Assembly (NCBI RefSeq): GCF_902167635.1 | Contig: NZ_CABHMS010000001.1 | Location: forward strand, 124,001-188,000 | Length of the DNA: 64,000 nucleotides | Direction: 5' to 3' | Source of the DNA: Chitinophaga vietnamensis | GTDB lineage: Bacteria; Bacteroidota; Bacteroidia; Chitinophagales; Chitinophagaceae | Shown here: positions 4,432 through 41,998 of the stretch, one piece after another | How positions within the stretch are numbered: the first letter of the stretch is position 1 | Layout: each line of letters begins with the position of its first letter | Program-made: the position numbers and the translations under genes | Notes under the pieces: model-generated | The model's database searches: none | What the model was told of the DNA's origin: nothing | The model's input: the letters and a program-made list of their open reading frames with translations, nothing else

Positions 4432-5370
4432 ATGACACCCACTCAGTGGACCTATCTCATCTTTGGAATTGTGATAGTTCTTGCGCTGATCTTCGACCTT
4501 GGACTACTCAGCAAAAAGAACCAGCAGGTAACCATCCAAAAGGCATTGATCCAAACTTCTTTCTGGGTGGGGCTTTCCTTGCTTTTCTTCGGATTTATCT
4601 GGTTTGAAGATGGCGCAAATACGGCGGTGAGTTATCTGAGCGCCTATCTCATGGAATGGTCCTTGTCTATCGATAATATATTTGTATTTATTCTGATCTT
4701 CGGTTTCTTTAAAGTTAAAGAGGCGAATTATGCCCGTGTGCTGCTCATCGGGATACTTATGGCGATTATTTTCCGCGCCATATTTATCAGCGTTGGCGTA
4801 GTTTTGATCCACCGTTTTGAATGGATTTTATATATCTTCGGTGTGTTCCTGGTATATACCGGTATCAAAATGTTCACTGCCAAAGAGGAAGATGAGTTCA
4901 AACCTGAAGAAAATGTGGCGTACCGGTTCATGAACAAGTATCTTCGTATTACCATGGAAGAGCCGAAAGGGCGCTTCACCATCAAAAAACATAAGAAGGT
5001 TTATTTCACCTCGCTCGCAATAGTGGTGGTGATGTTGGCCGTAACAGATATTATATTTGCCCTGGATTCCATACCCGCCGTTTTCGCCATATCTCAACAA
5101 CCACTGGTGGTGTATACATCCAATATTTTTGCCGTATTGGGGCTGAGATCATTGTTCTTCCTGCTGAGAGGGGCGGTCGACAAATTTGATTATCTCCCCC
5201 AGGGAATAGCCATCGTGCTTGTTTTCATAGGACTTAAAATGCTGGCAGAGTATTTCATTCATATTCCCGTGTACGTATCGCTGATCGTGATCGTGCTATG
5301 CCTCGGAGGTTCCATTCTTTATTCACTCTATCATCAGAAGAAAGAATTGCCGGAAGAACAAGTGAAGTAA
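4432..5370 (+). CDS. TerC/Alx family integral membrane protein
   Basis: This 312-residue protein has about nine predicted membrane helices. The family motifs are present: EWSLSIDNIFVFILIF near residue 80 and VTDIIFALDSIPAVFAIS near residue 210, each with membrane-buried acidic residues. TerC and Alx homologues are linked to tellurite resistance, manganese export and metallation of exocytoplasmic proteins; the substrate here cannot be read from the sequence. The start at 4432 is chosen over an ATG ten codons upstream because the -7 element at 4397-4404 overlaps that upstream ATG. The gene stands alone, between hairpins on both sides. Confidence 0.88.
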   Translation: MTPTQWTYLIFGIVIVLALIFDLGLLSKKNQQVTIQKALIQTSFWVGLSLLFFGFIWFEDGANTAVSYLSAYLMEWSLSIDNIFVFILIFGFFKVKEANYARVLLIGILMAIIFRAIFISVGVVLIHRFEWILYIFGVFLVYTGIKMFTAKEEDEFKPEENVAYRFMNKYLRITMEEPKGRFTIKKHKKVYFTSLAIVVVMLAVTDIIFALDSIPAVFAISQQPLVVYTSNIFAVLGLRSLFFLLRGAVDKFDYLPQGIAIVLVFIGLKMLAEYFIHIPVYVSLIVIVLCLGGSILYSLYHQKKELPEEQVK

Positions 5371-33963: not shown

Positions 33964-36420
33964 ATGTTGCTGTCACTGATTGCTGTTTGCACAATTCCTG
34001 TTGTACAAGGTACTGCCTTGGCACGGCCCGACTCACTCCCACTTGTTTCCATTTATGGAGAAGTGAGAGATAGCCGCCAGCAGCCAGTGGTCGCCGCAGC
34101 AATACAGCTATTTCGTGTGCAGGACTCCACCATCGTAGATGGAGTCTTTACAGATGACAAAGGACATTTCCGGCTGAAAGCTATGCCGGCAAACCAATAC
34201 CGTATATCCGTCGCTTATCTTGGCTATATAAAATATCAAGGCAGGGACATTACAGTTGGTAATACCGACGTGCATCTTCCCACCATTATTTTACAACAGG
34301 ACTCACACCTGCTCCAGGAGGTAACCGTGAATAGCAAGAAACCACTGGTGTCTTTTACAGGTGATAACGTGACCTTAAATGTGGAAAACCGCACCAATCT
34401 TATCGGTAGCACTGTTTTTGAAATTCTTGGTAGAGCTCCCGGGTTGATGACTATTCGTGATAATATTGTGCTCAACGGCAAAACCGATATCACGGTGTTG
34501 ATAGATGGCCGCCGTATGTTTATGGATATACATCAGGCAACAGCTTACATTAAACAATTGCCGGCTGCGCAGATTAAGTCGATAGAGATCATTAACAGTC
34601 CGTCGGCGAAATATGATGCTGCTGGTAGCGGAGGTGTGATCAATATCGTCATGAAACGCCCTGTCAATGAAGGTTTTAACGGAGCTGTCAACGGCGCCTG
34701 GAACCAAGGTTGGTATCCGCGTGCCAGCGCAGGCATCAATACCAATTACCGCCGAAAGAAATGGAACCTGTACGGCGCCTATACCTTCACATCCAGTAAT
34801 GTGTATTCGGAGAATAGTAGTAATCAGGTGATCCAAAATGGAAACAGCGACAGCTATATCGATATGACATCGGTATCGCATAAACGTTATCTTAATAACA
34901 TGGCTCGTGCAGGCGTCGACTTCCAGTTGAATGCCAGGCAAACCATCGGTGTTGTTGCCAATTTCAGTGGCAGCAACCTCACGTTGAGACCCGCCGAAAA
35001 CGACGCCTGGAGTAGCGCAGCCGATGCGTTGAAACGGAATATTTTCTACCAGCAAACTACGGCTAACAATTATATCAGTAACACCTTTGTGAATGTGAAC
35101 TACAATGGAAAATTTGATTCCTCCCGCAAGGAATTGAATATAGATGTCAATGGAGGCCGTAATCACAACCTGCCGGGATATACTTATGCACAACAGCAAT
35201 GGAATGACCAACACGAGCCGGTGTCGGACTGGCTATTGCTGCAAAGCCGGCAAACTTCCACTACAGACGTTGCCAGTTTCCGGCTTGATTATATACAGCG
35301 TATGGCGCACAAAATAAAACTTGATGCTGGCGTTAAGTCTTCCTACGCGCGCGCCGATAATCTTGTTTTGTTCGATACATTACAAGGTGGCAGTATCATC
35401 AGAGATACTGCGCGCTCAACAGATGCCAGCTACAAAGAATATATTAATGCCGCTTATGTTACCTTCAGTAAATCCTGGACCAGGTGGGATGTGCAGGGAG
35501 GGCTCCGGCTGGAACAGACCAACGCTACTGTCAGGTTCCGGGATACACACAGTCAGCTGGATATTAACCTCACCGGGCTTTTCCCCAGCCTCAGTGTGGT
35601 ATACAGGAAAGATCCGCGCAACCAGTTTTCCTTGTCGTTCCGCAAAGGAACGTTCCGCCCGTCTTACTTTGTGATGAACCCGGTGATACAGTATTATGAT
35701 CGCTATACTTACTATCAAGGAAATCCGGAACTGAGGCCCAGCATCTCCTATAGCAGCTATTTTTCGTATCTGTTTAAGCAACAATTCAACTTTACGATCG
35801 GGTTCTCTAAAACACTGCATGGTATTACGCAATTGTTCGAACAGCAAGGCAATATCTCCAAGATGACCTACGATAACCTGAATGAAAGCAATATATATAG
35901 CGCTACAGTTTACCTTCCTTTTAATATTACAAAATGGTGGGAGATGACTAACAATATACAAGGATTCTACCTGCAATATGTAAAGTATGATCATACACAA
36001 TTTCCTGATATCAGCAAAGGTAATCTGACCGTGAGGATATCAACATCCAATACCTTCACCTTGCCCCGGGGCATTACCCTGGATGCAGGACTCTACTGGT
36101 TTTCACCTACACGCTACAATCAGTTGTACATCAATGGTAATCTGGCTACGGAATTGACTATACGAAAAGCATTTATCGAAAAAAAACTGAACACATTTAT
36201 TACTTATGAAGATATCCCGATAGGATTTACACGCAAAGGAGATGCGACCTATAACAGTATTGTCAGTCATACACAAGACACAGATGATGCCCGTAGAATA
36301 AAGGCAGGATTTATTTATTCATTTGGTAACCTGAAAGTAAAGAACAATCGCCAACGAAAAACAGGAATTGAAGATGAGCAGAACCGAATAAAATCGGAAC
36401 AGGACAGAACTATCAGATAG
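33964..36420 (+). CDS. TonB-dependent receptor-like outer-membrane protein
   Basis: This 818-residue protein has a signal peptide (to about residue 21) and then a carboxypeptidase-regulatory-like domain (SIYGEVRDSRQQPVVAAAIQLFR near 30-52). A plug follows (EVTVNSKKPLVSFTGDNVTLNVENRTN; GRAPGLMTIRDNIVLNGKTDITVLIDGRRM), and then a barrel of the outer-membrane beta-barrel 3 type that ends with a charged tail (RQRKTGIEDEQNRIKSEQDR). There is no susD partner. It lies immediately ahead of the RiPP cassette in the same direction; whether it takes part in uptake or export of that peptide is unknown. A hairpin after the stop suggests separate transcription. Confidence 0.85.
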   Translation: MLLSLIAVCTIPVVQGTALARPDSLPLVSIYGEVRDSRQQPVVAAAIQLFRVQDSTIVDGVFTDDKGHFRLKAMPANQYRISVAYLGYIKYQGRDITVGNTDVHLPTIILQQDSHLLQEVTVNSKKPLVSFTGDNVTLNVENRTNLIGSTVFEILGRAPGLMTIRDNIVLNGKTDITVLIDGRRMFMDIHQATAYIKQLPAAQIKSIEIINSPSAKYDAAGSGGVINIVMKRPVNEGFNGAVNGAWNQGWYPRASAGINTNYRRKKWNLYGAYTFTSSNVYSENSSNQVIQNGNSDSYIDMTSVSHKRYLNNMARAGVDFQLNARQTIGVVANFSGSNLTLRPAENDAWSSAADALKRNIFYQQTTANNYISNTFVNVNYNGKFDSSRKELNIDVNGGRNHNLPGYTYAQQQWNDQHEPVSDWLLLQSRQTSTTDVASFRLDYIQRMAHKIKLDAGVKSSYARADNLVLFDTLQGGSIIRDTARSTDASYKEYINAAYVTFSKSWTRWDVQGGLRLEQTNATVRFRDTHSQLDINLTGLFPSLSVVYRKDPRNQFSLSFRKGTFRPSYFVMNPVIQYYDRYTYYQGNPELRPSISYSSYFSYLFKQQFNFTIGFSKTLHGITQLFEQQGNISKMTYDNLNESNIYSATVYLPFNITKWWEMTNNIQGFYLQYVKYDHTQFPDISKGNLTVRISTSNTFTLPRGITLDAGLYWFSPTRYNQLYINGNLATELTIRKAFIEKKLNTFITYEDIPIGFTRKGDATYNSIVSHTQDTDDARRIKAGFIYSFGNLKVKNNRQRKTGIEDEQNRIKSEQDRTIR

Positions 36421-36616: not shown

Positions 36617-36817
36617 ATGAAAAAGAACAAATTCTCCCTGGAAAGCTTTAGCGATGTAAAAGCATTTTCTGCTGAAGAACTGAAACTGATCAATGGCGGT
36701 ACTGCCTCTATTGATGAAATGTGTTCAGACTCCAATGATTCTGATAGCGGCCGCAACTGCTCAGTAACCAGTGATACTGACACTGCCGATGCAGCTACTT
36801 CCACATTGGCTGCTTAA
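36617..36817 (+). CDS. RiPP precursor peptide, grasp-with-SPASM type (graspetide-like)
   Basis: This 66-residue peptide has a Bacteroidetes-type leader, with FSAEELKLINGG at 17-28 ending in the double-glycine cut site. The 38-residue core (from Thr29) is exceptionally rich in Ser/Thr (14) and Asp/Glu (8), with alternating stretches SDSNDSDSG and TSDTDTADAATST and Cys at 36 and 48. Side-chain hydroxyls and carboxylates are what ATP-grasp maturases join in ester crosslinks. The ATP-grasp gene follows after 62 bases, behind a partly paired hairpin. Neither the ring pattern nor the product is known. The core lacks the regular TxKxPxxxD pattern of microviridins. Confidence 0.85.
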   Translation: MKKNKFSLESFSDVKAFSAEELKLINGGTASIDEMCSDSNDSDSGRNCSVTSDTDTADAATSTLAA

Positions 36818-36825
36818 TACTTCCA

Positions 36826-36854
36826 GAGCCCCATACCCGCATGGTACGGGGCTC
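36826..36854 (+). terminator. Imperfect hairpin between precursor and maturase genes
   Basis: GAGCCCCATAC pairs with GTACGGGGCTC with a single A-C mismatch and no following T run. It could stop part of the transcription, so that precursor mRNA exceeds maturase mRNA. Confidence 0.55.
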
Positions 36855-36879
36855 ATCTTCTCCCTAAAAAAAAATCGAT

Positions 36880-37887
36880 ATGATCCTGATCATCACCAAT
36901 CAATATGAGCCTACAACCGATTATGTGATCGACTGGCTGATAGAAAAGAAAGCAGACTTCTACCGTATCAACAGTGAAGACATGACCCAGCAGACGGCCA
37001 TTAACGACTTCAGTTTGAGTGATGATAATACGATAGAACTGGCTGGGAAAAAATTGTACCTGCCCGATATCCACGTGGTATGGTATAGAAGATGGTATGA
37101 CTACCGCAATACGATCACCCGCGCTGTTGACAAATATCATCGCCAGGCTATTATAGAATCACGTGAAGAAGCCACACAGGTAAGCTATTATCTATTCAAG
37201 TTATTGCGACATAAAAAATGGCTTTCCGATCCTTTCCAGAACCAGTCACATAATAAATTACATACGCTTAAACTGGCAAAACAAGTGGGCCTTACTGTGC
37301 CCGATACGCTCGTTACCAACAGCAAGGCTAGGTTGCGTGCATTCTACGAAAAACACCAGGGTGGCATCATTACGAAACCTGTATCGGACCCCTATGTATT
37401 TATCAGTGATAATGGCGATAACTATAAAAGTTTTACGGAGAAGATCACCAGCGGATTCATTGATGCATTGGAAGATCAATTCTTCCTGTCGCAATTTCAG
37501 TCGTACGTGAAAGGTAAATATGAACTACGCATCTTTTATCTCGACGGACAATTCTATCCCACCGCTATTATTCACTCCGGCACTACTGATATCAAGTTGA
37601 GCGTAAGCTACCAGGTGAGCCGCATCAACATGATCGCTTATTGCTTGCCGGAAGATATTATCGCTAAACTGCAACGCCTCATGAATGTGTTGGGCCTTAA
37701 TACCGCTTCCATTGATATGCTGGAAACAGAAGACGGGCATATCACTTTCCTGGAAGTGAATCCTGTTGGGCAGTTTATGGGATATGCCACACATAATAAT
37801 TATCAGATCGATGAAAAGATAGCCGAATGGCTTGTTAAAAATGATCGTCCTCATGAAAAAGAAAAAAAAGAAGATCAGTTTCGATAA
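36880..37887 (+). CDS. gwsG: ATP-grasp peptide maturase (GwsG-like)
   Basis: This 335-residue enzyme belongs to the ATP-grasp fold, in the branch of RiPP maturases related to MvdD. These enzymes phosphorylate Asp/Glu side chains and let Ser/Thr attack them to give macrolactones. An N-terminal pre-ATP-grasp segment (MILIITNQYEPTTDYVIDWL) is followed by DPFQNQSHNKLHTLKLAKQVGLTVPDT and the Mg-binding signature HITFLEVNPVGQFMGYATHNNY, with Glu292 and Asn294 as likely metal ligands. It differs from general ligases by the VVWYRRWYDYR region near 68. It follows the precursor gene, and its end overlaps the next small gene by 35 bases. Confidence 0.88.
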   Translation: MILIITNQYEPTTDYVIDWLIEKKADFYRINSEDMTQQTAINDFSLSDDNTIELAGKKLYLPDIHVVWYRRWYDYRNTITRAVDKYHRQAIIESREEATQVSYYLFKLLRHKKWLSDPFQNQSHNKLHTLKLAKQVGLTVPDTLVTNSKARLRAFYEKHQGGIITKPVSDPYVFISDNGDNYKSFTEKITSGFIDALEDQFFLSQFQSYVKGKYELRIFYLDGQFYPTAIIHSGTTDIKLSVSYQVSRINMIAYCLPEDIIAKLQRLMNVLGLNTASIDMLETEDGHITFLEVNPVGQFMGYATHNNYQIDEKIAEWLVKNDRPHEKEKKEDQFR

Positions 37888-38083
37888 TAGCATCCTGCCA
37901 AAGAAGCATATGCATTCGTTCCCATTGTATTACCGATTTTTGCGCAGGCTTCCAAATGATGCAGACACAGGTATCGAAAACCTGAACAAGATATCCTTCA
38001 GTCAACGTCATCGTAGCCTGGGATATCACCTGGAAGCCTGTTACAAGCCTGTATCAAAATTTATTCAGTCTAATTTCTTTTGA
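37853..38083 (+). CDS. Small basic protein between the two maturase genes
   Basis: This 76-residue frame starts within the end of the ATP-grasp gene (35-base overlap), and its TGA (38081-38083) lies one base before the ATG of the SPASM gene, the geometry of translational coupling. The N terminus is strongly basic (MKKKKKKISFDN). The body, LYYRFLRRLPNDADTGIE and FSQRHRSLGYHLEACYKP, has no known motif and one Cys. No double-glycine leader is present, so it is not an obvious second precursor. It may be a chaperone or recognition partner of the maturases, or a spurious frame in a gap; its tight placement favours a real gene. Confidence 0.5.
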   Translation: MKKKKKKISFDNSILPKKHMHSFPLYYRFLRRLPNDADTGIENLNKISFSQRHRSLGYHLEACYKPVSKFIQSNFF

Positions 38084-38084
38084 T

Positions 38085-39050
38085 ATGCAACCCGAATATT
38101 TTTCTTTATACAGTTATTGTATTCCGGTAATGGGGAAACATGCTGCCATTATCTGCGATTTGCAGAATCGGGGATATATAGAAATACCGCAATTTCTCTG
38201 CGAAGCTTTGACGGAATTCAAACATTCCAGTATTGCTGAATTGGAAACTATCTATGGTGATACAAAAAATAATATACGCAGGTTCCTGCAAGCCCTTGAA
38301 GAAAAGAAGGCAGGTACATTCACCAGGCATCCCGAACGTTATGGTGTACTGGATCTTCATTGGCGCCGGGCAGAAAAAATATTGACCGCTGTAATCGAGA
38401 TCAGCGATCCTGCCCGCCTGGATTACGCTGATGTCCTGCAACAGCTGGATGAGCTACGCTGCAAACATATAGAGCTACGTTGTTTTACCGCGCTGCCACT
38501 GCAGTGGTTACAGCACTTGATGGAAACGGTTGTTGGTACGCAGTTTCGCACAATCGACCTGCTGATCCCATACGGTAGTGGCTATGGTACCGTAACAGCA
38601 TTGAAGCAGTTTTCCCGGCAGTTTAAAAAGATCAACCACATCGTATTATATGGTACGCCACGGAAAATAAAACATATTCAGAACTGCATCTTCTCTACGC
38701 CGCAGCTGCTCAATAACAGCAAGGCCTTTCAGCATATCGGCCGCGATGAATATGTGATGAGCGTACAGTTCTTCTGTGAAGCGCAGCAGTTCAATCCATA
38801 TTATAACAGAAAGGTTTGTATAGATGATAGAGGAGAGATAAAGAACTGTACCAGCCATACAAGAAGCTTTGGAAATGCCGCTGAGCGAAGGATCGCAGAA
38901 GTGGCTGATGACCCTGCATTTCAGGAGTTATGGCATGCTAATAATGACCGCATACTGGAAGTAATGGATTCGCCATTCCGCTACATCTGGATGAATACTC
39001 ATGAGCTGGAGAAAATTGATGATCACTATTACAGTATCAAACATGCGTAA
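38085..39050 (+). CDS. gwsS: SPASM-family peptide maturase partner (GwsS-like), degenerate C terminus
   Basis: This 321-residue protein follows the grasp-with-SPASM partner family: FSLYSYCIPVMGKHAAIICDLQ at the start, LDYADVLQQLDELRCKHIELRCF near 120, and NRKVCIDDRGEIKNCTSHTRSFGN near 241-264. No CxxxCxxC radical-SAM motif is seen. In the C-terminal SPASM segment the usual CxxCxFRYxCxDC is replaced: the four Cys positions appear as Val293, Ser296, Trp302 and Thr305 around an intact FRYI, and the protein stops soon after. Only Cys245 and Cys255 remain. It may therefore bind no auxiliary Fe-S cluster and act as a scaffold. The exporter gene overlaps its end by eight bases. Confidence 0.75.
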   Translation: MQPEYFSLYSYCIPVMGKHAAIICDLQNRGYIEIPQFLCEALTEFKHSSIAELETIYGDTKNNIRRFLQALEEKKAGTFTRHPERYGVLDLHWRRAEKILTAVIEISDPARLDYADVLQQLDELRCKHIELRCFTALPLQWLQHLMETVVGTQFRTIDLLIPYGSGYGTVTALKQFSRQFKKINHIVLYGTPRKIKHIQNCIFSTPQLLNNSKAFQHIGRDEYVMSVQFFCEAQQFNPYYNRKVCIDDRGEIKNCTSHTRSFGNAAERRIAEVADDPAFQELWHANNDRILEVMDSPFRYIWMNTHELEKIDDHYYSIKHA

Positions 39051-41241
39051 ATTATTTAAACCATTTCCATTCTTCCGGCAGATGGATGCGATGGATTGCG
39101 GTCCCGCATGTCTGCGCATGATAGCGCAGCACTATGGCAGGCGTGTGAGCCTGCAAACGTTGCGGCAATATAGTCACTTCAGCAAGGAAGGTGTTAACTT
39201 GCTTGGCCTGACAAATGCCGCCGGGAAGATGGGGTTCCAGACACTAGGTGCGCCATTGTCTTTCGACCGGTTACAGGAAGCGCCACTGCCCTGCGTTGTG
39301 CATTGGAATCAAAATCATTTTGTAGTGCTCTATCGCATCACCTCGAAATATGTATACATCGCTGATCCTGGCAGAGGGCGTGCACGTTATACCCACGCTA
39401 ACTTTATCAAACATTGGGTGAGTATCGGAAACAACGGTAGCAGCGCCGGCATCGCACTGCTGCTGCAACCCACCAGCGATTTTTTTGATCGCCCCGATGA
39501 AATCGCTAGTGGCATTGGTTTACGACGGATCATCGCTTACCTGCGTCCTTACCGTCGACTGATCATCCAGCTGTTTCTCGGTCTCATCGTGGGCACACTC
39601 ATCCAACTGATATTTCCTCTTCTCACGCAAAGCATCGTGGATATAGGTATCCGACAAGAGAACCTGCACTTCATTACCCTCATACTCATCGGGCAACTGG
39701 TACTACTGGCCGGGAAAACCAGCGTGGAATTTGTACGTAGCTGGATACTGCTGCATATCAGTGCCAGGATCAATGTGAGCATTCTGAGCGATTTCCTCGT
39801 GAAGATGATGAAGCTGCCACTGCTATACTTTGATACTAAAATGACAGGCGATATTATGCAGCGGATGAACGATCATAACCGGATCGAGAACTTCCTGACT
39901 TCTTCTTCATTGAGCATTCTTTTCTCTGTACTGAACCTCGTTGTATTTAGTATACTGCTGGCGGTTTACAACCTGAAAATATTTTTTATTTTCCTCATCG
40001 GTAGTACCCTTTATCTCTTATGGGTCAAACTTTTCCTGAATCGTCGTCGCGTCATTGACTATGAGAAATTTGGTATTGCCGCGCAGAACCAGAGTAAGAT
40101 TATACAGCTGGTATATGGCATGCACGAAATAAAACTGAACGATTGTGAAAAACAGAAACGATGGGAATGGGAACACTTGCAGGCCAATTTATTCAACATT
40201 AATATCAAAAGCCTTGCTTTGGGTCAGTACCAGCATGTGGGTGCCTTCTTTATCAATGAAGGAAAAAATATCCTCATCACCTTTGTTGCAGCTGCCAGTG
40301 TAATCAATGGCCATATGACACTGGGGGTGATGCTGGCTATTCAGTATATTATCGGACAATTGAATGGTCCTATTGATCAGCTGGTGCAATTTATACAGTT
40401 TTCGCAAGATGCCCGTATCAGCATGGAACGGCTGAACGAAGTGCACCTGATCAAAGATGAGGAACCACAGGAAGCGAATCTGCTGCAGGAGTTGCCACCA
40501 CAACCAGCTATCAGACTGGAGCAGGTGTCTTTCCGGTATCCGGGCGCCGGCAACCCGCTGGTATTGCAGGAGGTACAGTTGGACATACCTTTCGGGAAGG
40601 TGACCGCCATCGTAGGTATGAGTGGCAGCGGCAAAACAACGCTGCTCAAATTATTGTTGAAATTTTACGACCTGGAGAATGGAGATATCAGGCTCGGTGA
40701 TGAAAGCCTCTCGGGAATCAGCCACAAAGTTTGGAGGCGGCAATGTGGAGTGGTGATGCAGGATGGTTTTATCTTTTCCGATACCATCAGCAGGAACATC
40801 GCAGTGGGCGATGATGAACCGGACCTCGCCAAATTGCAACACGCACTGGCAATGGCTAACCTGGAAGAGTTTGTAAACACACTGCCGTTAGGTCTTAATA
40901 CCGTAATTGGCAGCGAAGGGCACGGCATTAGCCAGGGCCAGAAACAACGCATCCTCATCGCGCGCGCTATCTACAAAAATCCCGCCTTTATCCTGTTTGA
41001 TGAAGCCACCAATGCACTCGATGCTAATAACGAAAGAGTGATCATGCATCACCTGAACGATTTTTTCAAAGGCAGAACCGTAATTATCGTAGCGCATCGC
41101 CTCAGTACCGTGAAAGATGCAGATAATATCGTAGTGCTCGATAAAGGCCGGATCATAGAACAAGGTACTCATTTATCTCTCACACAAAAAAAAGCCGCCT
41201 ACTATACGCTGGTGAAAAACCAACTGGAACTTGGCGCCTGA
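39043..41241 (+). CDS. Peptidase-containing ABC transporter (C39 peptidase, exporter)
   Basis: This 732-residue exporter cuts double-glycine leaders and exports the core peptide. The C39 peptidase domain (about 1-130) has Gln13, catalytic Cys19 in MDAMDCGPACL, His92 in NQNHFVVLY and Asp108 in IADPGRGRA. Six membrane helices follow (about 165-450). The nucleotide-binding domain has Walker A GMSGSGKTT near 525, a signature loop HGISQGQKQRIL, and Walker B FILFDEATNALD. The start at 39043 overlaps the SPASM gene by eight bases; a longer in-frame start at 39001 lies deep within that gene. The GG leader of the 36617 precursor is its likely substrate. Confidence 0.93.
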   Translation: MRKLFKPFPFFRQMDAMDCGPACLRMIAQHYGRRVSLQTLRQYSHFSKEGVNLLGLTNAAGKMGFQTLGAPLSFDRLQEAPLPCVVHWNQNHFVVLYRITSKYVYIADPGRGRARYTHANFIKHWVSIGNNGSSAGIALLLQPTSDFFDRPDEIASGIGLRRIIAYLRPYRRLIIQLFLGLIVGTLIQLIFPLLTQSIVDIGIRQENLHFITLILIGQLVLLAGKTSVEFVRSWILLHISARINVSILSDFLVKMMKLPLLYFDTKMTGDIMQRMNDHNRIENFLTSSSLSILFSVLNLVVFSILLAVYNLKIFFIFLIGSTLYLLWVKLFLNRRRVIDYEKFGIAAQNQSKIIQLVYGMHEIKLNDCEKQKRWEWEHLQANLFNINIKSLALGQYQHVGAFFINEGKNILITFVAAASVINGHMTLGVMLAIQYIIGQLNGPIDQLVQFIQFSQDARISMERLNEVHLIKDEEPQEANLLQELPPQPAIRLEQVSFRYPGAGNPLVLQEVQLDIPFGKVTAIVGMSGSGKTTLLKLLLKFYDLENGDIRLGDESLSGISHKVWRRQCGVVMQDGFIFSDTISRNIAVGDDEPDLAKLQHALAMANLEEFVNTLPLGLNTVIGSEGHGISQGQKQRILIARAIYKNPAFILFDEATNALDANNERVIMHHLNDFFKGRTVIIVAHRLSTVKDADNIVVLDKGRIIEQGTHLSLTQKKAAYYTLVKNQLELGA

Positions 41242-41247
41242 TCAAAT

Positions 41248-41691
41248 ATGAGCCACGACATAAATAGCCAAGAAGTAACACAGATACTAGCCAGCACACC
41301 ACGCTGGTTGCCGCGTACCAATACCTTGCTTTTCTTTGTACTGTTGCTTGTACTGTATATACTGCTGCGCACCATACCCTATCCGCAAGCCGTCAAAACC
41401 GCGCTAACAGTACACAATACCAACGATAGTACCGTTGTACAGATGTATTTGCCTGCGATACAGGCGCGGCAACTATATACAGGTCAGCTAATGACTGTCA
41501 CACTGAATACGACGGATGTGCCATTGAAAGCCAATATTTTCTATGCAGATACCACTGCAGAAATGAATGGCAGGGTACTTGTGAAAGCCTTGCTGACAGG
41601 ACATGTCAGCACATTAAATGACGGTGTCGGCGGAACCGGTCTCATCTCTGTCGGTGGAAAAAAGTTGTGGCATAAATTGTTGGAGTTTTGA
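41248..41691 (+). CDS. Short HlyD-like membrane protein
   Basis: This 147-residue protein lies six bases after the exporter gene. After about 25 residues (TPRWLPRTNT) comes a single membrane helix (LLFFVLLLVLYILL, about 27-40), as in HlyD-type fusion proteins. The rest resembles only the end of that family, a beta-barrel stretch with LPAIQARQLYTGQLMTVTLNTTDV, followed by GTGLISVGGKKLWHKLLEF. Normal membrane fusion proteins are 350-450 residues and contain a long coiled-coil hairpin, which is absent here. It could be a minimal accessory protein or an eroded fusion protein; no frameshift remnant was seen on either side. Confidence 0.65.
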   Translation: MSHDINSQEVTQILASTPRWLPRTNTLLFFVLLLVLYILLRTIPYPQAVKTALTVHNTNDSTVVQMYLPAIQARQLYTGQLMTVTLNTTDVPLKANIFYADTTAEMNGRVLVKALLTGHVSTLNDGVGGTGLISVGGKKLWHKLLEF

Positions 41692-41860: not shown

Positions 41861-41998
41861 ATGAAAAAGAAAATCGCAAAAAAACTCGACGTTCGTAAAA
41901 TGAAAATCGCCAGACTTACTGAATCCGGACAGAAAAAAGCAGAGAAAGCCACTATTCCACCCCGCACTTTCTGGTGCTCTGTGCTGACTGATTGCTAA
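41861..41998 (+). CDS. Class I lanthipeptide-like precursor peptide (orphan)
   Basis: This 45-residue peptide begins MKKKIAKKLDVRKMKIARL, the basic leader typical of Bacteroidetes class I lanthipeptide precursors, and ends TIPPRTFWCSVLTDC. Thr36-Cys39 and Ser40-Cys45 (or Thr43-Cys45) are spaced to form two thioether rings after dehydration. The gene lies 169 bases after the short HlyD-like gene in the same direction and is followed by a good terminator. No LanB, LanC or LanM homologue is in the window, so maturation enzymes would have to come from elsewhere, unless the ATP-grasp cassette acts on it. It lacks a GG cut site. Confidence 0.65.
   Translation: MKKKIAKKLDVRKMKIARLTESGQKKAEKATIPPRTFWCSVLTDC

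Follow-up and report, generated by a model that had tools for sequence, protein, structure and literature searches.

The closest described relatives of the locus studied here are the grasp-with-SPASM systems for ribosomally synthesised and post-translationally modified peptides (RiPPs), whose SPASM protein the survey PMC8939145, in the parts available to us, treats as a radical S-adenosylmethionine (SAM) enzyme and so names in a figure legend. Other graspetide synthetases are reported to need partner proteins, MirB acting with MirC and CorB with CorC (accessible text of PMC13097080). We found no experimental study of the grasp-with-SPASM group (graspetide group 14) in the literature searched; one may still be in print. 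Here we analyse a cassette of this type in 64,000 nucleotides of Chitinophaga vietnamensis DNA (contig NZ_CABHMS010000001.1, positions 124,001–188,000; 'the window', in which coordinates are given unless another locus is named). An earlier note on the window had stated as known that maturases of this branch make ester or amide crosslinks, which is too strong, since group 14 (branch 5 of the ATP-grasp ligases) is, in the accessible text of the two papers, described from genomes only. Our main finding is that the SPASM-family protein of the cassette, GwsS, belongs to a clade lacking both conserved sets of SPASM cysteines, and that it probably serves the ATP-grasp ligase GwsG as a partner.

The cassette

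Six frames, all open and tightly packed on the + strand, occupy 36617–41691, as the earlier note had described them: precursor, ATP-grasp protein, small protein, SPASM protein, C39 exporter and HlyD-like protein. The first four are as follows.

36617–36817, + strand: GwsA-like precursor, 66 aa; its leader resembles that of locus L061 and, by eye, that of L148, and it lies at the same site ahead of gwsG
36880–37887, + strand: GwsG, ATP-grasp ligase, 335 aa; matches to TIGR04192, MvdC and MvdD, solved microviridin-type relatives, likely catalytic residues invariant
37853–38083, + strand: LPL-like small protein, 76 aa, with FPLYYRFL and CYKPVSK; site before gwsS and two motifs common to related loci
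38085–39050, + strand: GwsS, SPASM-family protein, 321 aa, with a PqqD-like N-terminus; assigned by TIGR04193, cysteine columns and profile comparison

A 62 bp gap separates the precursor from gwsG, the small-protein frame overlaps gwsG by 35 bp if the ATG at 37853 is its start, and 1 bp lies between the small protein and gwsS. A promoter scan found 13 sites where 11.5 were expected, and terminator-like sites numbered 9 against 4.4 expected; none was used.

The best model for GwsG was TIGR04192 (GRASP_w_spasm), matched over its full length with 221.9 bits (E 1.2e-65; cut-off 230), and that for GwsS was TIGR04193 (SPASM_w_grasp), with homology over 300 residues, 139.9 bits and E 1.3e-40 (cut-off 175); PF13186 gave GwsS 14.9 bits, under its cut-off of 21.5. 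Each maturase family occurs at a single place in its own genome, namely this cassette. The set of GwsS proteins used below comprises 100 distinct sequences of at least 260 aa (shorter ones and five duplicates were left out) drawn from the genus, from sampled genomes of its phylum, order and class, and from two of the three plasmid records found; it holds the better matches and is not a random sample. GwsG adjoins GwsS in 98 of these 100 loci, and the two exceptions, L184_0 and L203_0, have only about 1.5 kb of flank. The TIGR04192/TIGR04193 pair, this adjacency and the conserved ligase residues bear out the assignment to the grasp-with-SPASM RiPPs, and by its gene content the cassette appears to be an intact member of graspetide group 14 in a divergent lineage.

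At E 0.001, TIGR04193 matched 30 of 395 genomes in the phylum sample (11 over cut-off), 28 of 298 in the order sample and 34 of 395 in the class sample. Relatives of GwsS were found in 31 of 79 genus genomes, the full-length ones besides that of the window being at most 33% identical and a 48-residue fragment 40%; no close relative of the window locus was found among these 79. TIGR04192 matched 53 of the 79, 28 over cut-off; the weaker matches come for the most part from genomes that lack GwsS and probably represent other ATP-grasp ligases. Loci L100 and L101 hold short GwsS remnants, under the 260 aa limit and with no GwsG adjoining, which are probably decayed cassettes.

GwsS lacks a radical-SAM motif and, in eight members, both cysteine sets

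The motif CX3CX2C was absent from the first 220 residues of all 100 GwsS proteins, that of the window included, and on this motif we reject radical-SAM chemistry by GwsS. The 17 Pfam families listed at E 1 for 34 GwsS members include no radical-SAM model, and the name used in NCBIfam, 'SPASM domain peptide maturase', makes no claim to radical SAM. A search of Protein Data Bank sequences with the GwsS profile gave nothing beyond two matches at chance level (E 0.48 and 0.96), and a scan of genome contigs with GwsS gave 16 pattern matches, none of them confirmed.

Eight cysteine columns of the alignment fall into two sets, one at window positions 215, 239, 255 and 305 and the other at 293, 296, 302 and in the tail, which we take to be the ligand sets of the two auxiliary iron–sulphur (Fe–S) clusters of SPASM domains. 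Both sets are present in 73 proteins, one set in 19 and neither in 8, including that of the window, columns 215 and tail not being effective in defining these classes. The first set is complete in 73/73 of the first class and absent from 19/19 of the second, and among the last eight only C255 of this set occurs, in three of them; the second set is complete in 73/73 and 19/19 and absent from 8/8. The window protein, which is short at its C-terminus, keeps only C255. The description of GwsS as a SPASM-family protein thus stands by homology to TIGR04193, but only one of its eight conserved cysteines is left. This loss and the LPL nature of the small protein, the most informative features of the cassette, went unremarked in the earlier note. 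The eight are those of the window, L061 (G027), L081 (G099), L146 (G199), L148 (on a Hymenobacter canadensis plasmid), L187 (G681), L197 (G542) and L198 (G671). We call them metal-free because the ligands are missing, and they presumably carry neither cluster. The metal-free GwsS of L148 is annotated as 'hypothetical protein'.

This natural series of two clusters, one and none speaks for their being dispensable in one lineage or more.

The metal-free state appears old and maintained

Trees were built from the ATP-grasp partners, with GwsS excluded. The 95-row tree omits three of the 98 ligases (shorter than 250 aa), and the 71-row tree omits near-copies, two very long branches and ligases shorter than 280 aa. 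The metal-free eight form one clade, with a Shimodaira–Hasegawa approximate likelihood-ratio (SH-aLRT) support of 96 on 95 rows and, on 71 rows, bootstrap 100, SH-aLRT 93 and recovery in 100% of 200 bootstrap trees, the program warning that the bootstrap was unsettled. The metal-free label requires one change on the tree, against 7.7–7.8 in shuffles. In these trees, which hold GwsG alone with no ligases of other groups as outgroup, the window GwsG sits inside the sampled GwsG diversity, within the metal-free clade. Because terminal branches in six of the eight metal-free rows measure 0.61–0.91 changes per site (95-row tree), we take the state to be old, and its confinement to one ligase clade (100/93) likewise argues that metal-free GwsS is old and maintained.

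The one-set state requires 10–11 parsimony changes, of which well-supported branches force at least three (71 rows) or at least one (95 rows). Beside this, 19 of the 100 proteins (L062, L068, L070, L077 and those of 15 other loci) retain the second set only, and the first set has apparently been lost several times.

A different account of the same data is that GwsS normally performs Fe–S-dependent chemistry on the precursor, that this activity has been lost in the present lineage, and that the protein now drifts and is dispensable, leaving a product with only ATP-grasp crosslinks. It fits with the 73 relatives that hold both cysteine sets and with the window protein, which has a short C-terminus and, as do the other seven, lacks the ligands. 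It sits poorly with a radical-SAM motif in 0/100, with the single metal-free clade and with its long terminal branches. Also against it, all eight metal-free frames are open with GwsG adjoining, and 19 positions are identical in all eight, among which G17, E232, N237, G250, N254, G263 and R299 are also kept in 93–100% of the eight-cysteine class. In the one close metal-free pair, L229/L230 (wider stretches of L197/L198), the ratio of non-synonymous to synonymous differences per site (pN/pS) is 0.35 for GwsS, 0.22 for GwsG and 0.29 for LPL, with synonymous sites saturated (pS 0.83); the drift account can point to GwsS as the least constrained of the genes in this pair. Overall we consider loss and drift unlikely, and the clade, the branches, the open frames, the invariant positions and the pN/pS value together disfavour GwsS as a decaying gene.

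GwsS as a partner of the ligase

PqqD-type domains are the leader-binding domains of many RiPP maturases. Residues 20–77 of GwsS resemble PqqD-type proteins weakly in a profile comparison (hhalign score 23.1, E 4.5e-4, probability 33%), in which 0/200 column shuffles scored as high and the middle and C-terminal parts of GwsS had no match. Eleven PqqD proteins were compared, one of them (L240) under the Pfam cut-off. The metal-free eight alone gave a probability of 1.3% and E 0.04, above 60/60 shuffles, and the Pfam scan listed no PqqD match among the 17 families for the 34 GwsS members.

The lost metal sites together with the weakly PqqD-like N-terminus lead us to favour GwsS as a docking partner, and the dependence of MirB and CorB on MirC and CorC is a precedent that supports this reading. 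We put at roughly 0.6 the probability that GwsS is a non-catalytic, precursor-binding partner of GwsG rather than an enzyme. Several points weigh against it: the pair compared for constraint is saturated and has GwsS as its least constrained gene; the window GwsS has no near relative for such a comparison; the PqqD match is weak, and weaker still for the metal-free eight; and with both cysteine sets retained in 73 of the 100 proteins, the clusters may matter in most systems.

In the partner model, the PqqD-like N-terminal part of GwsS would bind the GwsA leader and GwsS would hold the precursor on GwsG, with help from the LPL protein. GwsG would then phosphorylate Asp/Glu side chains and join them to Ser/Thr hydroxyls, with a loss of 18 Da per ester, after which the C39–ABC protein would cut behind GG and export the product.

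The LPL-like protein

Microviridin leaders carry PFFARFL, which must touch the ligase before catalysis can begin. The LPL family is described in the accessible part of PMC8939145, where LPL is noted to resemble the wider Phhx(1,2)h motif. The window LPL carries F-P-L-Y-Y-R-F-L and, near its end, Y-K-P-V-S-K. At E 1 NCBIfam gave no family for it and Pfam a single one, at chance level (E 0.086); it matches the L081 counterpart at the same site (E 2e-5). A small open reading frame (ORF) precedes gwsS in 96 of 100 loci (none in 4). Among these 96, the first motif occurs in 50 against 3.6 in shuffles, the second in 64 against 2.5 and both in 41 against 0.12, counts that lean upward because the ORFs were chosen by motif. 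Among the metal-free loci the first motif occurs in 7/8 and the second in 6/8.

The precursor leader lacks PFFARFL and has no proline, a similar motif standing instead in the separate LPL-like protein; judged from their likely starts, the precursors of L061, L148 and L231 also have leaders free of proline. LPL might act as a trans-acting leader. One version of this makes LPL the main partner and the true activator of GwsG, with GwsS only a shuttle or dispensable companion. Leaders supplied in trans can activate RiPP tailoring enzymes in vitro (accessible text of PMC13003496), and such a role would agree with PLYYRFL in the window LPL, with the motif counts and with the proline-free leaders. 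It agrees less well with the selection of the ORFs by motif, which inflates those counts, with L061, where Ser replaces Pro, and with L197 and L198, which lack the second motif. Moreover, by alignment GwsG does not conserve the MdnC residues that touch the leader arginine. We regard this version as quite unlikely.

A three-part ligase would combine the two partners, LPL giving a microviridin-like motif in trans while a cluster-stripped descendant of a radical-SAM/SPASM protein survives only as a precursor adaptor. We offer this tentatively and would sooner doubt it than rely on it. The partner role of GwsS is the reading that the comparisons favour most, and a trans-leader role for LPL would be the boldest.

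GwsG, the precursor core and the product

GwsG scored 154.7 bits with MvdC and 140.1 bits with MvdD, both well below its TIGR04192 score, and it is distantly like RimK-type ligases (41.9 bits). The relatives with solved structures are AMdnB, CdnC and, under 5ig9 and 5ig8, two 'ATP grasp ligases' that we take to be MdnC and MdnB. Residues K126, K166, R217, D279, E292 and N294 are invariant across 24 aligned ligases. Side-chain esters or amides, as the earlier note expected, are therefore a reasonable prediction for the GwsG crosslinks, by homology to solved microviridin-type ligases and by these residues.

In the precursor, GG closes a leader of 28 residues. The 38-residue core behind it contains 14 Ser/Thr, 8 Asp/Glu and 2 Cys and lacks Lys; our recount of Ser/Thr and Asp/Glu agrees with the earlier note. 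The calculated monoisotopic mass of the core is 3784.511 Da when unmodified and reduced, and would be 3766.500, 3748.489 or 3730.479 Da after one, two or three 18-Da losses. In the family search proposed in the earlier note, the maturase pair had the grasp-with-SPASM models as its best matches, under their cut-offs, and the precursor hit nothing in Pfam or NCBIfam at E 1. Two precursor ORFs at the counterpart site of L061 match it (phmmer E 2.4e-4 and 3.8e-4); a precursor was sought at L081 and none was convincing. Pairs of D/N with S/T, considered with regard to the new ring pattern that the earlier note inferred, are not enriched in the window core (5 against 3.3 in shuffles, p 0.17), and we rejected such dipeptides as a common core signature, p being below 0.05 in only 2/9 cores. 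The product is probably a small, cross-linked, secreted peptide. Elsewhere, ten tandem precursor-type genes lie ahead of gwsG at 4833–6616 of L148 (Hymenobacter canadensis plasmid NZ_CP114769.1), and a tandem array of five near-identical peptide ORFs occurs at L230.

GwsG might instead perform some other ligation, for example of the peptide to a further small molecule, and the product would then not be a microviridin-like graspetide. The distant RimK-type likeness would suit this, as would metal-free L081, where genes resembling AMP-ligase, acyltransferase and ketosynthase lie nearby and no exporter was seen. The MvdC and MvdD scores and the best solved relatives, which are microviridin-type ligases, speak for a graspetide, and the window cassette lacks the extra genes of L081; we judge another ligation very unlikely.

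Exporter, HlyD-like protein and neighbours

The cassette is completed by two further genes and possibly a third.

39043–41241, + strand (mechanical ORF from 39001): exporter with C39 peptidase, membrane and ABC domains; PF03412 (122.4 bits), PF00664 and PF00005
41248–41691, + strand: short HlyD-like protein of 147 aa that has the N-terminal anchor seen in full-length relatives; aligned to the L061 HlyD_3 protein
33964–36420, + strand: OMP_b-brl_3 outer-membrane beta-barrel protein, possible cassette member; PF14905 (262 bits)

The exporter probably starts at the ATG at 39043, overlapping the end of gwsS by 8 bp, and 6 bp separate it from the HlyD-like gene. A C39 exporter follows gwsS in the window and L148, and in L061 and L231 by a DCGP/DCAP motif read directly; no exporter was seen in the metal-free loci L081, L228, L229 and L230. 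The domain scan of L081 showed the ketosynthase-, AMP-ligase- and acyltransferase-like neighbours mentioned above, and L228–L230 look related to it, the scan covering L081 alone. These four loci perhaps represent a lipid- or polyketide-linked peptide pathway.

The HlyD-like label of the earlier note holds in part: the protein resembles the 298-aa HlyD_3 relative of L061, but clearly so only over residues 1–36 (E 1.4e-7). A 144-aa HlyD-like protein at L085 14059–14493 has an N-terminal anchor in common with it, and such very short proteins may be a recurring reduced adaptor or remnants.

In 3 of 41 loci (the window, L061 and L148) an OMP_b-brl_3-like protein is encoded in the 3.5 kb ahead of gwsG; these are 3/4 of the metal-free loci in that set against 0/37 of the cluster-bearing ones, and the gene at 33964–36420 may belong to the cassette. 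L228, outside the 41-locus set, has an 808-aa ORF at this site.

Downstream, 170 bp past the HlyD-like gene, a 45-aa ORF (41861–41998, + strand) carries a leader of the class I lanthipeptide type (NF038153, 19 bits against a cut-off of 22) and a core ending in TFWCSVLTDC. Lant_dehydr_N occurs at four places in the genome, none in the window, and the ORF may for this reason be an orphan precursor served from afar.

Comparison with known systems

A metal-free GwsS variant was not found in the literature searched. Such a protein should be easy to handle in air, and the role of GwsS is therefore directly testable. If GwsS is an adaptor, a redox enzyme family would have been turned into a scaffold, and a further graspetide group would join the newly reported partner-dependent ones.

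The window resembles the grasp-with-SPASM systems (TIGR04192/TIGR04193; group 14 in PMC13097080, branch 5 in PMC8939145, as far as their accessible text goes) in its gene order of precursor, ATP-grasp, LPL-like, SPASM and C39 exporter genes, in its GG precursor and, by profile, in both maturase families. It differs from them in that its maturases fall just under the curated cut-offs, its SPASM cysteines are lost and it has an upstream OMP_b-brl_3 gene of a kind not seen within 3.5 kb ahead of gwsG in the 37 cluster-bearing loci examined. With the microviridins (MvdC/MvdD, MdnB/MdnC, CdnC) it has in common a homologous ligase and a motif, PLYYRFL in LPL, that resembles leader PFFARFL; unlike them, it places this motif in a separate protein, has no microviridin-type core and has an extra SPASM partner. 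The rosaritide (MirB/MirC) and corallotide (CorB/CorC) systems, in the accessible part of PMC13097080, resemble the window in that the ligase strictly co-occurs with a second, neighbouring protein. There MirC and CorC are needed for full ligase activity, and the partners are a peptidyl-prolyl isomerase-like chaperone and a 2-oxoglutarate–Fe oxygenase, where the window has a SPASM protein.

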